Positions 466 through 62,473 of a DNA stretch of 64,000 nucleotides are shown here, piece by piece (within the stretch, counting starts at the first letter, position 1; every line of letters starts with the position of its first letter). This DNA comes from Nymphaea colorata (taxonomy: Eukaryota > Streptophyta > Magnoliopsida > Nymphaeales > Nymphaeaceae): contig NC_045145.1 of assembly GCF_008831285.2 (NCBI RefSeq), positions 21,902,040 through 21,966,039 on the forward strand, read 5' to 3'. The notes beneath the pieces were generated by a model, which was not told where the DNA came from, made no database searches, and saw only the letters and a list, made by a program, of their open reading frames with translations. Made by a program: the position numbers and the translations under genes.

Positions 466-1777
466 CCAATGTTGATACTTAACCGCTTCCGCATACGAGC
501 TAGGTTCAACATTACTCATGATAGAGGTTAAAAATGCATAATGAGATTTAGAGAATTTGTGAACAGGTAAATAATTGTGTATGGGATAACGTGTACCTGA
601 GGATTGCTTAGTTGAAGTAGATTCCTTAGGCGGTGAGCTTATAACCATCACATTGGAACACACATAATCTTGAAAATAGGATGGTGAATGACGAGGACGA
701 CTAGATTTCCGTAGAGCAAGTGCATCTGGAGGAGGTGGATCATCTGACATAGGTCGATGATCTGAAACTGACAGATTTTGGTCATTGTTGATGGAATCGG
801 GAGGTTGAATAGGTGATAACGGGGAGGAATTTGCTGGAACACCATTCTCACACGATGACATATATTCCTTTCCAAGGTAATCTGGTTGAGGATGAGGTAA
901 AACAACATTGTTCAAATCATTTGTATGGCATTGTTCGGTTAGAAATGGAAATTTATCCTCAAAAAAAGATATATCTCTGCTTTTAAAAATTTGTTTGGTA
1001 TCCAAATCATATACCTGATACCCTTTCTGATTATGAGGATATCCGACAAAAACACATTTTTGTGCACGTGATGAAAACTTATGCATGAGGTTTAAATTTT
1101 TGGCATAACACAAGCATCCAAAAACACGCAAATCTTCATAATTGGGCTTTTTATGAAAGAGAAGTTCAAACGGAGATTTGTTATTTAAAAGAGTTGATGG
1201 CATTCTATTAATTAAAAAGGTTGCTGTCAAAATACATTCACCCCAAAAAGTTACCGAGAGATTTGCTTGAAACCTAAGTGCTCGCGCCACCTCTAGTAGA
1301 TGGCGATGCTTCCTCTCAACACGTCCATTTTGTTGAGGAGTTCCAACACATGAGGTTTGATGTTCTATGCCATGCTCATGAAAATAGACTTGCATATTAT
1401 GAGTTGTAAATTCAGCACCATTATCACTCCGAACGCATTTCACATGAGTATTGAATTGAGTAAACACCATGACACAAAAACGAGTTAAACAAGAAAATGT
1501 TTCAGATTTGAACCTCATCAAGAAAACCCAAGTAGATCGTGTAAAATCATCTACGATAGTAAGGAAGTAATGTGCACCCGTGTGAGACGAATCCTCCCCA
1601 AATATCACAATGAATCAACCCGAACGGATCACTTGCTCTACTAGTACTAGTTGGAAAAGGTAAACGAGTGAATTTAGCTTTAAGACATGCATCACAAGGA
1701 GAATCATGCTTGGAAATAGAGATGTTTTCATTCAATGAAAAAGACTTATCAAATGAAGGATGTCCAAGTCTCATATG
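466..1777 (-). pseudogene. copia integrase (frameshifted)
   Basis: After the TAG at 1778-1780 the frame reads HMRLGHPS and then CDAC, the His/Cys zinc-binding N-terminal module. A frameshift near 1590-1606 (around CDIWG) moves the reading to a second frame that holds the catalytic core. The DDE residues are visible as the first Asp in IVDDFTRSTW, the second in RSDNGAEF and the Glu in GRVERKHRH. The GKPQ-like stretch ending CVFVGYPHNQKGYQVYDL follows, as usual in copia. The frame ends at a TGA at 463-465, where the family has a charged residue after Trp just before RT. Integrase would insert the cDNA copy; this one is broken. Confidence 0.92.
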
Positions 1778-3256
1778 CTATATATGAGCTGTCTTATTAC
1801 TAGGAGAAGCAAACAAAGCATGAGAAGTAGTTGGAAGAAGAAGATGGTAAAGTCCACCGCTCAAGTTACCCACTCCAATCAGCTTCCTCGACAAAGGGTC
1901 CTGAAAAGCACAACAGGTTGGAAGAAAAACAGCAATACAATTAGTGGACTTAGTGAACTTTGGAACTGATAATAAATTGTATTTAAAATCAGGAATATAT
2001 AGGACATCAGTAAGCTGAATATTGGCTGAAAGGTAAACTGTTCTAGTAGTAGAGACTAGTGTTTGATGTCCATTGGGTAGGTTAATCACACGCTGTTTTG
2101 ATAAAATTTTGATATTAGAAAGCAAATGTAAATGAGGGGTCATATGGTCTGAGGCTCCGGTGTCAATGATCCAAGGAAAATGAGTTGAGAATGATTGTTT
2201 ACCTGCTAGATTAGCGGCAGCCGGTGAAGTATCAACATTTAACCAAGATGCCAATTGACTGACCTGTTCTTCGGTAAGTTGTGACAAAACAGCATTGACT
2301 TTTACATTGTTTGCCGATGTTCTTCCCTGTTGCGCCTGTTCAATTTTAGATGAATCACTAGTTGAACATGTAGCCTTAGGATGATTTGGAGGATAACCAT
2401 GAAGCACATAACATCGAGATTTTATATGTCCAAGCAGTCCACAATGATCACACTTTGGTCGAGGACGATTGCGAGTAGCATTAGGCATTCTTGCCTGATT
2501 CCGTTTGGTATATGATGTAGGAGAAGACCTAGCTGCAAGAGCTATGTTATTAGATCCAGACATTTTTGGTGTGAGAAGACGTTGAGTCTCTTCTTGAAGC
2601 AACATAGCATATACCCTATTAATGTTGGGTAGAGGATCAATAGCAAGAATCTGGCTTCGAAGATTGCTAAAACTTTCATTCAATCCCATCAGGAACTGAT
2701 AAACTTTTTCATGATCTTGACATGAATGAAACTCTTTAAACGCACCACAAGTACATGTAGACACAGTTGAATAAGATCCAAGTTCATCCCAAAAAGTTTT
2801 AAGTGTAGTGAAGTAGACAGCCAATGAATTGTGTTCTTGGCGTACATCAGATATCATCTTCTTCAATTGATAAATACGAGCAGCGTTACCTTGAGAGAAA
2901 CGTTCTTGAAGATCAATCCAAACCTCGTGAGCTTCACTTGCATAGATAACGCTATTTGCTATCTCCTTGGATAATGAGTTAAGAATCCATGATAAAACCA
3001 AGTCATTACAGCAAACCCATGGCATGTAGTCCAAGCTAGTGGTTGCAGGTTTTGAAATAGAACCATCAACAAATCCCAACTTGTTCTTGGCACTCAGGGC
3101 CATTTTCATTGCCCGTCGTCATGTAGAATAGTTATCTCCAACAAGGGGATTAGTCACTAAGACAGCATCAGGATTATCAGAATGGTGCATGACGAAAGGT
3201 GACTCATTTTGATCACTAGAAATATCGGTTCGATCAACAAGAGGAGATGTCACCAT
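1778..3256 (-). pseudogene. copia gag and aspartic protease region (interrupted)
   Basis: The frame starts at the ATG at 3254-3256 and is broken by a TGA at 3119-3121, where copia Gag normally has a conserved Trp in the motif N-Y-x-x-W. It then stays open to a TAG at 1778-1780. The gag core has the plant copia (UBN2-type) pattern, including ERFSQGNAARIYQLKK and YFTTLKTFWDELGSY. A CCHC zinc knuckle, C-x2-C-x4-H-x4-C, lies at about 2411-2452 and would bind RNA. The protease active site WIIDTGASDHM is at about 2141-2173. The TAG falls where the family has the Trp of the LWH motif that begins the integrase zinc region. Gag forms the particle and the protease cuts the polyprotein. Confidence 0.92.
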
Positions 3257-32900: not shown

Positions 32901-33749
32901 GCCAATAACAATGGATTTACATTGATGATGATCATTGATTTTTTCTTGTGCGCTTTGCCAATAACAATGGATTTACATTCTATCAACATGATCGATCCTA
33001 GACATGAACAGAAGAGCTTCTATATAAACACTTAAGAGGAACAATGCTTTGCAACCCAGTACCACCAGCGATGCTTGATTGAACTTCCGTTTCGCAAACA
33101 CCAACATCACCAGATTGACGTAGAAACTAGGAGTTTGATGCTTTTTTTTTTGTTATTAGCCTTTCGTTCCCATAAAAGCAGAACATAGAGGAATTACCTT
33201 CATAAATCAGTTCACTTGCAGACCACTTTCAACTTGCGTACGGGTATCAATGTTGAGGATTTGGTTTCAGTTCCCAGTGTATCAATGTGTGCTTCTATCT
33301 GCTTGTAGCATAGACTGAATTCATCTTCCTGGAATTGCTTTTCTTCCCAAAAACTACTGATTGTTTCACGGACTGAATTTGGACTTAATTACATCCCTGA
33401 TCACAGGATGTGAAGTTGAAAAAATTCTGCCATTTTCATGAATTCTCTTATCATTGCTTTGATAAGTGGAAACATCCCTATGAAAGACATCCATACCCTG
33501 CTCCAACTGTACATTTTCGGATTCAAGTTGCAGAAGAAATGTATAAGCTATTATTAGTACTTAGTTACGTAATGTTGTCGAAGGGCATCAGAGACATGCA
33601 TCAAGGAAACACAAGTTGATTGTTGGGTACAGAAACAGTCAAATCCATCATTCAGCTTTGACTCGAAGCCTTAAAACTGCTTTGCTTGTATCTGCTCGTT
33701 TTACATGTGTAATCAAGTGTCATACCTAACAAAATACAACTTTTGTTCG

Positions 33750-34905
33750 TACAGTTCTGTCCTTCAAAAGCTCACCATTTTCGGGTGCTTTACTTTCATC
33801 TTTTACTAAATTAGAGCATCCAAATTAATCAAATGGTTAGCATTCTAATCATGTTTTACTGCTGCAAAGTTCAAAAAACTTCCATGTTCTGGTATTCTTA
33901 CTGCCACTCTGTTCAATGCAGCCCATCTTGAAGAGCAAGAACAACCAGCCATTACCTTGGCTTTTATCTCAAGCCTTCTAATTACCTGCAGGGAATATGG
34001 AGATTTGATTCTTCCAAAGAAACTATATGCTAGAAAGAGTTTCAATCCCCCTAAGTGTATAAAAATCACCACACTAAATATGTTTTTTAGCTATACATTA
34101 TTCCCAACAAATGGAACGCCATGTGTCGGCTTTGCCCTTCTTTTCTTAACAAAAAGGTTCAGCCATTGACAATTATGAGTTGCCAGTGATACTTGAAGCT
34201 CTGCCAGGTCCATTGAGGCTGGCTGGCGTGCAAGTCCTTTAATTCGTTTGGTGCTTCAAGCACAATGATAAATATTGATATCTATTGATATACATACCAA
34301 TGGGATCTGTTTCGAAATATAACCTATTGATATACATACCCCTGTCCCTCTCTCTTTCTCTTGATTAGTTTGGGTTTTATGTTCGTCCCTCTTTGGCTTC
34401 CAATCTCTCAGTCTACCCCTTTTGTCTTGAACCCTCTTTTTGATCTCTCTCTTGACCTCAATTTTGCCTCTTTCTCTCTCTGGATCTCTTGATGGTCTCT
34501 TTGTATGTGCATATGCAGCAGAAGAGGAAGAAGTAGAAGTTATTGTGAAACCAATGGATGGAAAAGTGGCTGTTCAACCTCAATCTGAGAAGAGTTGGCT
34601 CTGAGGATCAGAGAGGGTGATGGCTGTAGTATATAGTATTGAAAGCAATGAAAAGCATCACTCAATTCGCTGTGAAGATGTTCTACAAGGTGGATCAAAA
34701 GGATAGATGTCATGAGTTCTTGACAAACGGTTGGCTCCACGAAAAAGTCTAGATGGTATGTATACATGTTTATACAGGTATACGTCCTTTTTTTTCTTTT
34801 GTTGATTCAGAATGAACATGCATGTATATATACATATTTATTTTGATTCTAGTCTTTCTGTAATTGATTCAGTGAACTGCAAGAAATTAAGAAGATTGTA
34901 AACGT
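33750..34905 (+). repeat. Left arm of a 1.1-kb inverted repeat
   Basis: Compared with the reverse complement of 35375-36440, matching blocks occur in the same order. They include CAAAAGCTCACCATT (33765), TAGAGCATCCAAATTA, TTCTGGTATTCTTACT, TCTCAAGCC...AGGGAATATGG (33968), a match near AACGCCATGTGTCGGCTTTG, TTCTTAACAAAAAGGTTCAG, GTGCAAGTCCTTTAATTCGT, the CT-rich block with CTTTGGCTTCCAATCTCTC, GAAGTTATT, GTTCAACCTCAAT, ATTGAAAGCAATGAA, and CTGCAAGAAATTAAGAAGAT (34880). The arms have many substitutions and indels. No known coding domain is visible. Confidence 0.85.
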
Positions 34906-35374
34906 TTCTATATTTCTTTTTCCTTCATGGATGAATGACCCTTAAATGTTCTTCCTTCTGACTTTTGAGATTTACTGCACCATCAAATTGATCTTGAAAC
35001 CAACTCTACTATGACTATGGCCTTTGAACATTGCATTTAATGAAATGCGAGAAGATAAAGACATTGAAAATCCATATGCTAGTTTTTTCACTGTCACTGA
35101 AACAACAATGAGGCTAGAATAGCTGGCATTGATGATTTGACATTCATTAAAAGTGGACCTTAGGGAGGATCATCTTTTATGAACACATGCTAGCAATTGA
35201 TTCCTTCTTTCTATTTCAAATTGTTTTATGGACTTTTCTTCAACTGTTCCTTTTTTCTTTTGAACAAGAGATAATGGACCGATGGCAGCTACCAGATTTA
35301 GCCCTTGGAGGTTTTGCATGCTTGAGTTGTAAAACTTTCTTTGGCATGCCTTTATTCAGGTGTTAATTTTGTAA

Positions 35375-36440
35375 TCTTCTTAATTTCTTGCATTTCGCTA
35401 AATCAAATATAGAAAGGCTACATGCAGAATAAACATTTACAATCGACTTCCTAATAAACTTGATCCTTGACTTCTTCTTGCTCTTGGGCAAGTTCAAGCC
35501 ATCAAACAATTGCCGAGCCCTCTGGATGTTTGAATCGAGCTGATGGTGCATCAAGAATTCGAGGTTGTTGTCCTTTCATTCCAGAATAGCCGGTCGTCTT
35601 GGCATTATACTGAGAGATACTTCATTGCTTTCAATGCTACAGTAATGCCAATCACCTCCAATTGAGGTTGAGCATCTATTACATGATGTTCTTCTCTTAA
35701 TAACTTCTCCTTCGTCCTTTTGCGTTGCATGTGTATAGAGAGAAGAGGCAAGAATCAGAGATATTTAGAGAGAGAGGCAAGGGTTGAATTCGATAGAGAT
35801 CAAGGAGAGATAGAGAGAAAGGGGGCAGACCAAGAAATCGGGAGCCAAAGAATGAAGAGAGACACATCCCACTAACACCCATTCTAAATCCACTAGTTAT
35901 TGTTGTGCTTGAACAATGAAAAACAACTTAAAGCACTTGCATTCCAGCGAGGTCAATAGTGTTGGTGAGTCAACTATCATCGGCAACCCATAATTATCCC
36001 AGGTTGAATCCTTTTATTAAGAAAAGATGAGCAAAGTCAACACATGGTGTTCCATGTGTTATTGAAAGACATCTCATGTGGAGGTTTTCTACATGCAGCA
36101 TAGTTGCAACTCTTTCTGTTGTTGTAATTGGCATTAGCGTATAATGAACCTCTTTGGAAGAACCAAATGTTCATATTCCCTACAAGCAATTAGTGGCTTG
36201 AGATGAAAAAAAAAAAAAAACCACAGGTACTGGGCGGTTGTTGTTGCTCTTCTAGAAGGACAGCACTAAACAGAGAGTAGCGAGAATACCAGAATATGTA
36301 TCTCAAGTGTCCTTTGAACTTTGTGAAACTATAATATGATTTGCATGTTAATCGTTCGACTAATTTGGATGCTCTATTTTCATAAAAATTGAAAATAAGG
36401 TACATGATAATGGTGAGCTTGTGAAGGGGAGAGATTTATG
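35375..36440 (-). repeat. Right arm of the 1.1-kb inverted repeat
   Basis: On the minus strand this arm repeats the left-arm blocks in the same order, from CACAAGCTCACCATTATC (about 36425) to GCAAGAAATTAAGAAGATTA (about 35375). A spacer of about 470 bases (34906-35374) separates the arms. A 15-base A run (about 36204-36218) is present in this arm only. Transcripts crossing both arms could fold into a long imperfect hairpin. Confidence 0.85.
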
Positions 36441-38163
36441 AATGTCAATAAATTGGATATTGAATCAGATATATCTTTAACTATATCTACTTTTTAAAAT
36501 ATTTATATATTTAAATTTGGATTTAAATATGTAAAAAGAAAAATCATATCCAGATCTAAATTTACAAACCAGATCAGATCCGATCTAAATATAATTTTTA
36601 CACTCATATCTAAATCTGAATTTTGAATCGAATCTAACCGATTTTTAAAATATGAGAACATTAGATATAAGTAATTTAACCTGAATCCAATCAAATATTT
36701 ATATATATCCAAATCCCAACAAACATATTATTTCTCACATCAAACATTCAAAATCCAATCCTATTTCTTAATCAGTTATTAAACTATTTTCCATATCCGA
36801 TTTTTCTTGAAACTGTTCAAAGCACCCTATTAAATGAAAATGAAACCCTTTTTTTCCAGCAAAATCAGAGGGCTATGATGAGTTTTCTTTTCTGGCTGGT
36901 TGAACAAAAGAGATAAAGCGACCTCAGGCCAGAGCCGTCAAGAGAGACGCTACGGTCAACATTTGCTGATGACTCTTGGCCACCCCTTTCATTAGGGGGT
37001 TCTGGATTACAGAGAGAATCAACCACAATGTTTTAAAACTTTGGCGTTTCAGAAACATATGGATCTTAGCGATCTGGGGCTACCAAAGGTAGTCAAAAAG
37101 TAAAGCCGACCCCAACAACCAAGATTCCCGACGGCAAGTCTCCTTTGCCGTCCGCTTCTGAAAAAGTTGCACTACTAACATCCAAAAAAAATAAAGGTGA
37201 AATCCACAGATAGGGAACCGTCCACAGTACGTGAAACAATTGGCGTACCACTCCACCAGATTTCCTCCCATGTTTATGATCATGACAAGACGCCTAAAAA
37301 ATTGGGAGCCGGTAGGTGAGAATCCAACACGCCCATCTTCCTTTCAAAAAGTGCTTTTGCCAATCTAACCGCAGAAACCTGTGGGCGGCAGATGAGAAGA
37401 CCCCCGCTAACAAGTAAATTTTGGCATGCCCAGGCCGGTAGGTCTGAAAGTGGAGTTGAGTCGAGCTGATGCTGAAGAATTAAGTGGGCATACCTAAGAA
37501 ACCAGATCACTTAGCAGAGATCTTGCCAAATACGAAAACCTCGTGGGGCCTTTGACAACAAAAAAAACCACTATCACAGTGTCATGAATCTATTCTAACG
37601 ATTTGAGCAGATCCAAAAAATAGTAGAACAGTGTTCTATGAATTAATGTTCTATCAATCTACCCAAACCTTTGCGACAGATGCACAGGACACTGTAATAG
37701 TATTTCTGTTGCCAATCGCCCCCTTGGAATTTACCTCTTCTTTGAGGAAAAAACATAAGCTAAGAGCCTAAGCCCTCCATCATAATGACCAAGAAGAAAC
37801 AGCACAAGGTAACTCGAGGTGCAAAATACAGGGCTCCAACTGGTCCAAAGTCTTAAACTCGACGCCTTTCGTAATGCTCTTATTATCTAATGCAATGAAA
37901 CGCATAACCGCTGCCAATCATAAAGAAATAGCACATGCTATAATGCACAAGAAAAGGACTATCAAGGGTCCTGTAAGATTCAAACTTGAGTTCGATAACA
38001 AGCAAACAATTAAAACATGGCATCAATGACCAAATTGGCTTAGGAGCCACTCAGTTGCCACATTGGAAACACGTTTCCAATTTGAAAAATGAGAAAACAG
38101 TCAAGTAAAATGCAGAGACAAATACTGCGATAATGTCTCGTTCACATACACGTTTATTTGAAC
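36441..38163. other. Spacer between the inverted repeat and B12D
   Basis: 36441-36800 is a copy of a dispersed AT-rich repeat with GGATATTGAATCAGATAT and AATCCGATTT-like words. About 36900-37560 is richer in G+C with short open minus-strand frames that I cannot assign. 37560-38163 shows nothing recognisable beyond probable 3' flank of B12D. Confidence 0.5.
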
Positions 38164-43733: not shown

Positions 43734-45824
43734 ATACCTTCATCGCACCACTGCACGTAAATTTTTTGATATGTGCTGTTCCGGCACCCGCACCTGCACC
43801 CCGCACTATGGTGACATAGATCGTCTCTTTCTTTATTTGATTTCCATTGGTCATGGTTGTTAATTTCGGCCAGTCAGACACATATCGGCCGAACTGTTCA
43901 TATGGGAAAATTACAATATCTGATTAAAAAATTGAATCGAATTTGGACTGGAGAAATGACATTTGATCAGATTTTAAATTATATATATATATATCATTTG
44001 AATTTAGATGTTTTAAATAAATGTTTTACATCGAGTGTCCATACATTTTGAAAACCGACTAGATTCCATTCAAAACTTGCACTCAAATTCCATTCAAAAC
44101 TTGCACTCAAATTCAGATATCAATGTAAAAAATCAAATTCGGATTATGAAATTGACTTTCGAATCCAAATGAATTTGAATATGAACATGTGAACACCAAA
44201 AAAACAAAAAAAAAATGATACAATTAAAGACATATCTAATTCGAATATGAATAATTGACATTTTTAATTGTAGTGGTAAAAAGTGCATCGGGCATAGTAT
44301 TTTAAAGTGGTCGTGGTCGGCCATGCATGACTGAGATTTGATTTCATCATACGTCACGAGGATATGAGATATCGCAAGCAAGTAGATGTCAATTTATTTG
44401 GTGTGACATTAAGATTAGGGTTTCAAATGCATTCATAAACGCTTGTTCTTTGTGCAAACTGTTTCAAACTAGTGTACCATATTAGCCAGTTTGGTAAGAT
44501 CCTTGTGCCGTCTTTAAATTGGCAAAAAAATTAAAACCGTACATAAGATGTGGTAAGGTAAGCAGAGATAGAACCTACCTAGCTTCAACCTTATGCTAAG
44601 AAATAATTAAATTCATGTGCATTTTCAATCAACCTGACATTCCTCGCATGTCAATGTCGATTTGAAAGAATTGCATTTCTTTTGCAAAACACACACACAC
44701 ATATATATATATATCTACATGATTTCTCACAAGTACAATTAAAAAAAAAAAAAACTGATTCATTGACATGGGCCATGAAAGATACTTCATTACTTTCTTA
44801 GGGGAAAGAAGGATTTGCCAATTACCAAGCAAAAGCAAAAAATGCATGGAAATTAACGAGTATCTCTTATCATTTCGGATCAAATGGTTGAAGTTGCAGT
44901 CGGAACAGACTATCTTATAGCTTGCCTAAGAGCGGTAGGTAATAATGGCGTATAAGGAATTCATCTCAAAACCTTAGAAGTTTTGAGAGTGGAAACAGTA
45001 AATGAAGAAAGGGAAAACATATATCTCTTGGTTGCATGATTTTTGATAAAAATTGAAAAGGTGAGATTGGGTGGTGCAGAAATCTTACGTATCAGAAAAT
45101 CTTTGACTACTCAAGAACCGATAGGACCCGCGAATCCCCAAGACTTCCTTTCCCAGAGAAACAAAGGCGAAAGGATGGGACTCCTCGCCTCATCCTGGAT
45201 GCCTTCTCTTTATCAACCCCCCCATTGATTAGGCCCTCGCCCTTGCAGCTTGCAGAAAATGAGCAAACCCAGAAGGTACCTTTTGTAAAAAGTGAGATTT
45301 GAGACCTATTTGTGGCAATGAAAGGAAATCACGAAAGGATCTACTTTTTTGTAGTAGGCGGACGAGGTAGACGTAAAAAGGGAACCCCGCTGTGGTGCGC
45401 TCCATTTGGTTGTGCCGCCGAGTCGAGGTCTTGAGAGGACCGTCGGTATGAAAATAAGACATTGAATCCAAATCGGTCAGGCCCAGCTTTGGGTTAGGGA
45501 TTCAATTAAATCAGAAAAATATATTCTAATATTTAGTTTTTTAAATCATTACAAATAACGCATAAAGTCAAGAAAGAAATTTTTAAAAAATATTTTAAAA
45601 CTAATAAAAAAATGAGCAACCTAAGGCAGGAAACTGAATCTATTGTGCGACATAGTATAGGTCTGCGAGTGATTTTGAGTTGCTCTCGGATCTCACATAC
45701 ACTCTTGACGCAAAGTGGGTGAGTGGTTAAAAGTTTCATGTTCGAGTAAGGAATTAAGCCTTTGTTTTCAAAGGGGTTGGTGCAATAGGTGAGATAGGGG
45801 CTAGTAGGCAGTCAGTTTTTGCTT

Positions 45825-47223: not shown

Positions 47224-47543
47224 GCGCTGGTCCATAACTAGCGAACGAACCTTGCAAGAGCTCTGAACTCAACCTGGTCGAGTCCAAGCGCTGGTCCATA
47301 ACTAGCGAACGAACCTTGCAAGAGCTCTGAACTCAACCTGGTCGAGTCCAAGCGCCGGTCCATAACTAGCGAACGAACCTTGCAAGAGCTCTGAACTCAA
47401 CCTGGTCGAGTCCAAGCGCCGGTCCATAACTAGCGAACGAACCTTGCAAGAGCTCTGAACTCAACCTGGTCGAGTCCATGCGCTGGTCCATAACTAGCGA
47501 ACGAACCTTGCAAGAGCTCTGGACTCAACCTGGGCGAGTCCAA
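47224..47543. repeat. Minisatellite: five copies of a 64-bp repeat
   Basis: Units start at 47224, 47288, 47352, 47416 and 47480. Each begins GCGCTGGTCC or GCGCCGGTCC and contains AGCGAACGAACCTTGCAAGA and CTCAACCTGG. Copies differ by only a few bases, so the array is young or homogenised. It directly borders a GC-rich patch. Confidence 0.95.
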
Positions 47544-47960
47544 GTCAAAATGGGCGTTCATGTCCAACCATGAAAGCTGAAGGATGAGAGACGAAGGAAA
47601 ATCAAAAGGCAGACAAAGAAGGGATCGTGGAGATTTGGGTGTGGAAAGCAAAAGAGGAAAAAGACAAAGGAGCAAAGGTCCAAACCCGGTGGGACCCGCG
47701 AGATATGGGACGCCCAAAAAAAGGCGAAGCTGCGGATACCAAATCCCGACCTTCCCGATGAATTGCCGATCTTCTTGTTTTCTTATCGCCACCTGTCCTC
47801 GGCTCCTCGGCGGAAAGCGGCCGAAACGCGGAAGATCTTCCGAGATCGCTCGCTGGCCCCACCTGGGCCGGCCGGACTCCTCCTCTCGGCCGGGCCACGT
47901 GGACGGCCGGTAATTGGAACATCGTAACATCAAATCGACTCCTTGGCAAACTCTCAATGG
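47544..47960. other. GC-rich patch of unknown role
   Basis: It is clearly richer in G+C and CpG than its surroundings, with GGGCCGGCCGGACTCC and a CCACGTGG G-box core near 47897. Long open frames exist on both strands, as expected from composition, but none shows a recognisable domain. It could be a promoter or CpG-rich leader of an unseen gene, or part of a transposable element. Confidence 0.4.
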
Positions 47961-60730: not shown

Positions 60731-62473
60731 TCTTGTTCACGGTTTAATAATTGAGTCTGGGGCCAAAATTATAATGTTTGCCACCTAACTAGAGCCAGAC
60801 TACTGCCAAATTTTTGCTATTGTAGTTCTTTGGAGCTAAGGAAGAAGCCACAAATGCAGCAATCTGGACACCCTAACTGGTCCATCGAGAAGATTTTCCA
60901 CTATGTTCCAACTGCTCAGCCTCCATCTGGAATATGTAAAAACGGTGATTCATCAAGAAAACCTTGTGAAAAAACTTTTTTCTTTTCAATCTGTTAACTT
61001 CTTGAGAGTAATTATGAAACAATGAGGTAAGCTGAGTATGAAAAGCTAAAATTTCGTCCGCGATTTAGTCATGCCATCGCCATCGCTATTTTCTTAATTT
61101 ACATAAAAGCAGCCAACTTTATGTTTATTATGAAAACAAGTTTCCAGAATATATTTATGAGTCGTTTGACAGTGTGAACATTCAGTTAGTGTTATACATG
61201 AATCTGCATTAAAAATTGTAGTAGATTCATATAATACTAAAACGTGAAGTCTATGAATCTGTCTCGGTGTTCAAACTGTCATACGCTACCTATGTTACAA
61301 TTAGTTCCATCCTTCAAGAGCTTGAGATTAACCAACAAGAAATGTTAATGAAAAAGCTAAATCTTGCAAACTTCTCAATCAGATTTGATTAAGACTAATA
61401 TCCAATTAAGAAATCAGATTGGATTAAGATTTACAAAATGATGTCCGATTTGGATTCGAACATACATAAATATTTGGTCCGATTTGCATCAGATTTAGTT
61501 TTGGATAAATATCCTACATCCAATGTTCTTACGTTTTGAAAATGGGCCACATTCAGTTCAAAATTCAGATTGGGATTCAGATATATATGTAAAAATTGGG
61601 TCCTTATCAGATTCGAACTGTGAAATCAGAATTCTGATTTGGATTCAGATACGACTTTCCATTCTCTACATATTTGGGTTGATATCAAATTCAATTTTAA
61701 ACAAATATCCTATATCTAATGTCCATATATTTTAAAAGTCTGTTTTTCCATATTGTAGTGCGGTTTGGATTGGGTTTAAAAATCTGACCTGTATTGAGAT
61801 ATGATTTTAAAAACCAGATTCAAATTTGATGCTCAAGGGAAGAATGGAGTAAATGGATCTTGGTGGTTTTGTTTGGATTTACTTTTTCTTGTTTACAAGT
61901 TCAATCAATGGGAAGACATTCTTAGATATTGGATTTCCTTTGTTACCTTATATATGCATCTTATCCATGCATCTAAGATCCACAATGAAATTAGGGTTTC
62001 TTCTACTTTCTTATGGAAGGGATTGGAAGCAATTCCACAGAAGAATCATCCATGCCGTGGGAATGCATGCATGCATTGATTTGAAACAGCGATCAGTTCA
62101 TATGACATGGTGAAACTAGGCTACATGGGCGACCGGGTTCATATTGTAAGTTGCTCGAATTCTAGTGACTTACATGCAATGAAGATAGGATTTGGCAAAA
62201 TTGGTTCAAAATTTATTGAAAGAATGCCCAAAATCCAAAACCGCTTTGGGCAACTGGGAGGGAGAAGATCCCACCATCTGAGCATGAGGCCGAAGCCCCA
62301 TTACATTCATCTTGCCCATAGGGTCCAAAAATGCTTTGGGACTTAAGTGGACTTATGGTACATTGTGGGGCTGAGATAGGTGGGGGCTCCATAAGGCATA
62401 TGCCACACAAGTTCAGTTATATGATGCAGCCCCACAAGATCCAGTCTCTGCTTCAAGACCAATTGAAAATTTG

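Follow-up and report, generated by a model that had tools for sequence, protein, structure and literature searches.

A diverged inverted repeat in Nymphaea colorata that is very probably a tail-to-tail pair of pseudogene fragments from the 5' end of an Ulp/SENP-family gene

Paralogous pseudogene fragments that lie near each other in inverted orientation are capable of forming hairpins, and two such pairs with mapped small RNAs are described for rice in an excerpt of the study concerned. These pairs show 83% and 96% identity over 154-185 nt; one hairpin has a 185-nt duplex with a 1283-nt loop, the other a duplex of about 155 nt (PMC2708354, excerpt). The inverted repeat reported here is located in a 64,000-nucleotide stretch of Nymphaea colorata DNA (C8:21902040-21966039; the whole stretch is referred to as the window). 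It resembles the rice pairs in that it appears to consist of two neighbouring, inverted, paralogous pseudogene fragments that could form a hairpin, but its arms are ~1.1 kb long at 74% identity and are known from sequence alone (PMC2708354, excerpt). In the Allen model, as excerpted, MIRNA genes are born by inverted duplication (PMC3237417). Here, too, part of a gene appears to have been duplicated in inverted, convergent arrangement, the copies have diverged and a relative is found elsewhere in the genome. In contrast to the MIRNA genes of that model, the arms hold no conserved duplex block and consist largely of upstream and intron sequence. The gene family involved appears to be that of the plant ULP deSUMOylating proteases of the C48 family, classes of which have been described in plants (PMC6117577, excerpt). 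The likeness to the excerpted description lies in the Peptidase_C48 domain of two later ORFs of the related locus on C9. The arms differ from the proteases described there in carrying a decayed exon 1 only, the catalytic peptides that were tried being absent from the window.

The inverted repeat is real, as had been claimed in a sequence-only reading of this DNA. The local alignment pairs 33722-34902 on the plus strand with 36472-35368 on the minus strand over 1250 columns, 1036 of them aligned. Its score of 293 far exceeds the maximum of 29.5 (mean 19.4, sd 2.3) reached by 200 dinucleotide-preserving shuffles of one arm. Identity amounts to 73.6% of the aligned columns (762/1036), the 274 mismatches comprise 136 transitions and 138 transversions, and the K2P distance between the arms is 0.33 over the whole local alignment. 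With blastn, 742 of 1216 columns are identical when gaps are counted (61%, E 1e-77). The limits of the arms (Table 1) agree with those proposed earlier (33750-34905 and 35375-36440). The outermost ~30 alignment columns are weak, and no similarity was found beyond the outer ends when 33000-33760 was compared with the inverted 36400-37400 (score 15.0; 60 shuffles, mean 16.4, maximum 24.0).

Table 1 Features of the inverted repeat and its right-hand boundary (window positions)
Feature	Position	Strand	Remarks
Left arm	33750..34902	+	left gene fragment, read as running from the upstream region through a CT-rich leader and the exon-1 remnant into intron 1
Left-copy leader and exon-1 remnant	34497..34757	+	C9:18382628-18382911, 64% with gaps
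Spacer, read as more intron 1 of the left copy	34903..35367	+	465 bases; C9 intron 1, 73% across spacer bases 12-289
Right arm, shorter inverted copy	35368..36440	-	probable end within intron 1 at 35368
Right-copy exon-1 remnant	35461..35604	-	73% to C9, 144 bases
AT-rich dispersed repeat	36438..36811	.	at the right-arm boundary, outside the inverted repeat

The window's own assembly (407.8 Mb, 783 contigs) was searched with the arms and the spacer, all match counts being lower bounds. The left arm gave four matches, one to itself and three to parts of the right arm. Six were obtained with the right arm: one to itself, three to parts of the left arm, and single matches on C9 (83% over 90 nt, E 5.6e-18) and C12 (80% over 69 nt). 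For a 101-base piece of the left arm the sole genome match was itself. Seven matches were found with the spacer, including C9:18383206-18383495 (73%, E 8e-39) and four further copies of a 52-base piece (35192-35243), which are 87-89% identical and located on C782, C405, C4 and C13. Since C9 lacks this piece, it is probably a small insertion in the spacer. The arms are low-copy at the sensitivity used, again with counts as lower bounds. Searching the genome with an arm had been suggested earlier as a check, and the outcome, low-copy arms with a gene-fragment relative on C9, spoke against two of the origins then considered, a transposon with very long terminal inverted repeats and two copies of a dispersed element inserted head to head. 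The multiple dispersed copies of the arms that would be expected of such a transposon were not found in the own genome at this lower-bound sensitivity. An element of this kind, or a Pack-MULE-like carrier of gene fragments, is barely credible for this locus; that the gene fragments are inverted and that a dispersed repeat abuts the right end would suit it, but the copy number is low (lower bounds), a host gene is collinear with the spacer and the inner parts of the arms, and no target-site duplication is visible in the flanks, as judged by eye only and with the right end overlapping another repeat.

The match on C9 lies inside an open frame reading MAKRPLNLNWKELAPR...HQLDEKIQRARQLVDGLNLPDGGRKLRIRLKSLEEEKERR. 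In a blastn comparison of 30 kb of C9 with the window (E up to 1e-6), four of the 17 rows fall in the arms and spacer; among the other 13, two lie by position in copia elements and four in the AT-rich repeat. Exon 1 and intron 1 of the C9 locus are matched in order by the inner part of the left arm and then by the spacer: 34496-34756 corresponds to C9:18382628-18382911, 34833-35215 to C9:18383126-18383521 and 35262-35352 to C9:18383524-18383612. The right arm matches the same C9 exon in inverted orientation. Because the spacer, alone and together with the left arm, is collinear with C9, it is regarded as further sequence of the left copy past exon 1. A Pfam search with five C9 ORFs placed two of them in PF02902 (Peptidase_C48, the Ulp/SENP SUMO-protease domain), one containing HWSLVIICIP (E 3.9e-4, 20.8 bits against a cut-off of 20.7) and the other QQNNPYDCGLFVLYFIQ (E 6.4e-9, 36.4 bits); the remaining three, exon 1 included, match nothing. 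Comparison of the joined C9 peptide with solved structures gave nine weak PDB matches, the best being SENP7 (E 0.0023). The C9 locus is read as a single SUMO-protease gene of the Ulp/SENP type, spanning ~33 kb and harbouring copia elements in its introns, a model taken from the ORFs in which exon 1 and the catalytic ORFs would share one transcript, judging from their order and strand, and in which the sequence after exon 1 would be intron. This gene may belong to the OTS class of ULP proteases. A genome search with the exon-1 peptide recovered two places, C9 and the right arm; the C9 gene is the only other place found in the genome for exon 1 of the source gene.

The repeat is very probably a pair of truncated, unprocessed pseudogene fragments, arranged tail to tail and derived from the 5' end of an Ulp/SENP-family gene. 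A duplicated gene start, mentioned earlier as one alternative, is the explanation that fits best; it draws its support from the Ulp-type C9 gene, whose exon 1 and intron 1 are collinear with the repeat. The source would have comprised the upstream region, CT-rich leader, exon 1 and the beginning of intron 1 of a SUMO-protease gene of this family. Inverted duplication would have joined a longer copy, consisting of the left arm and the spacer and reaching ~0.5 kb into intron 1, to the shorter right arm, which would have been broken within intron 1. Both copies would have decayed after joining. The apparent hairpin loop would then be the extra intron of the longer copy. Such an origin would illustrate how the duplication of gene fragments, with no transposon involved, can give rise to a long and diverged inverted repeat in a plant genome, its 'loop' being plain intron.

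Both fragments have the properties of truncated unprocessed pseudogenes. A protein-coding gene homologous to them is located on C9 and, in contrast to a processed retrocopy, they appear to have kept intron sequence, as the inner arm ends and the spacer match C9 sequence following exon 1; moreover, the frame is disabled and exons are missing. In the right arm, C9 exon 1 is matched by tblastn at 59.5% identity over 42 aa (E 2.8e-11), with one in-frame TGA at 35576-35578. The match in the left arm is weak (37.8% over 37 aa, E 0.005), and an in-frame TAG is found just past it at 34750-34752. Matches by tblastx were considered for part of the window and at scores over 30 bits. The three-way alignment suggests that the later part of exon 1 may have been deleted from the left copy, and the exon end and intron start from the right copy. 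The pseudogene-pair reading is carried by homology and collinearity, by a copy number that is low at the search sensitivity applied, by the broken frames and by the lack of significant window matches for later C9 peptides; under this reading a duplication event from a gene of the C9 model would have been followed by neutral decay and the copies would lack function. The pair looks like ordinary gene fossils and nothing found here shows activity.

About 700 bases upstream of exon 1 are common to both arms. No match to this region was obtained in the 3 kb preceding the C9 exon (each arm scoring 20.0; maxima of 60 shuffles 27.5 and 29.5) or in the 30-kb C9 stretch compared by blastn, so that C9 may not be the direct parent. 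In their upstream part, both arms also resemble a C12 fragment (L012:4727-4815; 69-90 nt at 74-80%), and ORFs on the strand opposite to this fragment are read as a RING-type gene. A genome search with this fragment returned itself and the right arm only. The missing upstream match on C9 and the piece on C12 would fit an older, since lost gene copy. Between the arms, the K2P distance amounts to 0.256 in the part upstream of the exon (95% interval 0.214-0.306, 634 columns); between the left copy and C9 it is 0.326 past exon 1 (0.271-0.390, 473 columns). Among 404 three-way columns, 57 are shared by left and right only, 59 by left and C9 only, and 57 by right and C9 only. As the K2P intervals overlap and the three-way counts do not separate the branches, the split between left and right appears to be about as old as that from C9, perhaps a little younger. 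A recent split between left and right thus finds no preference in these columns, which counts against the pseudogene-pair reading, as do the missing C9 match of the upstream region, the weak protein match of the left exon, the unexplained C12 piece and the uneven identity seen when 34668-34836 is kept in the comparison. The star-like columns, and a long upstream region that is the same on both arms and lacking on C9, would also be accounted for by two once complete, convergent Ulp-type genes that lost their 3' parts by deletion, with no duplication of a fragment. This history is unlikely, however, as a search of the window with the five later C9 peptides gave nothing significant (best E 0.18).

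The sequence-only reading had presented the repeat as a candidate hairpin-RNA locus that would fold into a long imperfect hairpin if transcribed through. A fold of this kind is indeed predicted: RNA of 33722-36472 would reach -1003 kcal/mol with 970 pairs, 747 of which join the arms and 736 do so roughly in register, while eight other window segments of 2751 nt would reach -595 to -763 kcal/mol. A fold of 33907-35000 by itself was set aside, as it lacks the right arm. The predicted fold would be feasible if the locus were transcribed through; a conserved block and an Rfam match were both missing. Identity plotted along the arms, another check suggested earlier, is even outside 34668-34836 and lower inside that stretch. 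Without this stretch, which was excluded after the data had been seen, the 877 columns (77.4% identity) show no unevenness (p 0.68, 5000 permutations); including it makes identity uneven (0 of 5000 permutations), since this part of the exon is rearranged and less similar. A maintained miRNA duplex would stand out by its conservation, but no arm block does so, and 34668-34836 is less conserved, not more. Rfam gave no match at gathering score in the whole window and four sub-threshold matches in 33000-37200, all far below gathering. One of the Rfam models, bxd_1, matched over the right exon remnant (27.2 bits, gathering 75) and was taken as chance.

Among the 21-mers of the arms, 21 of 1133 in the left and 52 of 1053 in the right match the C9 leader and exon 1 with no more than 3 mismatches, compared with 14 of 6000 in a control stretch. 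At least 17 bases are predicted to pair with the other arm in 10 of the 21 left and 1 of the 52 right C9-like 21-mers, and in 39% (left) and 45% (right) of all 21-mers; with 1 of 52 well paired, the C9-like part of the right arm would be mostly poorly paired. The left segment 34508-34538 is both well paired to the other arm and within 3 mismatches of the C9 leader, which leaves room for the hairpin reading. A working hairpin-siRNA or proto-MIRNA locus, at which read-through RNA would fold and be cut by Dicer-like enzymes into products acting on the C9 gene or on chromatin, is improbable. Its predicted fold, more stable than those of the eight other segments, is expected of any inverted repeat this alike if transcribed through, and the excess of C9-like 21-mers over control in both arms is set against the poor pairing of the C9-like part on the right, the absence of an arm block conserved over the rest and the lack of an Rfam match. 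The rice inverted pseudogene pairs with mapped small RNAs provide a precedent (PMC2708354, excerpt). A hairpin-RNA role is possible but unsupported. It is very improbable that the locus is a birth intermediate of a MIRNA or hairpin-siRNA gene with its parent family still recognisable, being transcribed and diced and tuning the C9 exon-1 relative, for instance via 34508-34538. If small RNAs were found, the pair would represent a hairpin RNA early in its birth, for which the related gene is already known.

No tRNA was found, and Pfam searches with 20 window ORFs returned copia and peroxidase families only, 16 of the 20 having no match. Copia-type gag and integrase frames are located at 466-3118 on the minus strand. 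The AT-rich dispersed repeat is ~375 bases long and has further copies at 43900-44267 and 61377-61783, as well as on C9 and C12. A tandem array of peroxidase genes occupies 4500-28500 on the minus strand, with PF00141 on two ORFs, one of them just below cut-off. One peroxidase exon occurs at 116 places genome-wide, five of them in the window, and two array copies are 93.5% identical. Peroxidases are also present on C9 at 18.89-18.96 Mb, at a distance of ~0.5 Mb from the Ulp gene. The window peroxidase has closer relatives on C3 and C4, however, and an ancient chromosome duplication is therefore no more than a possibility here. At 47224-47544, a 64-base unit is repeated five times head to tail in nearly identical form.
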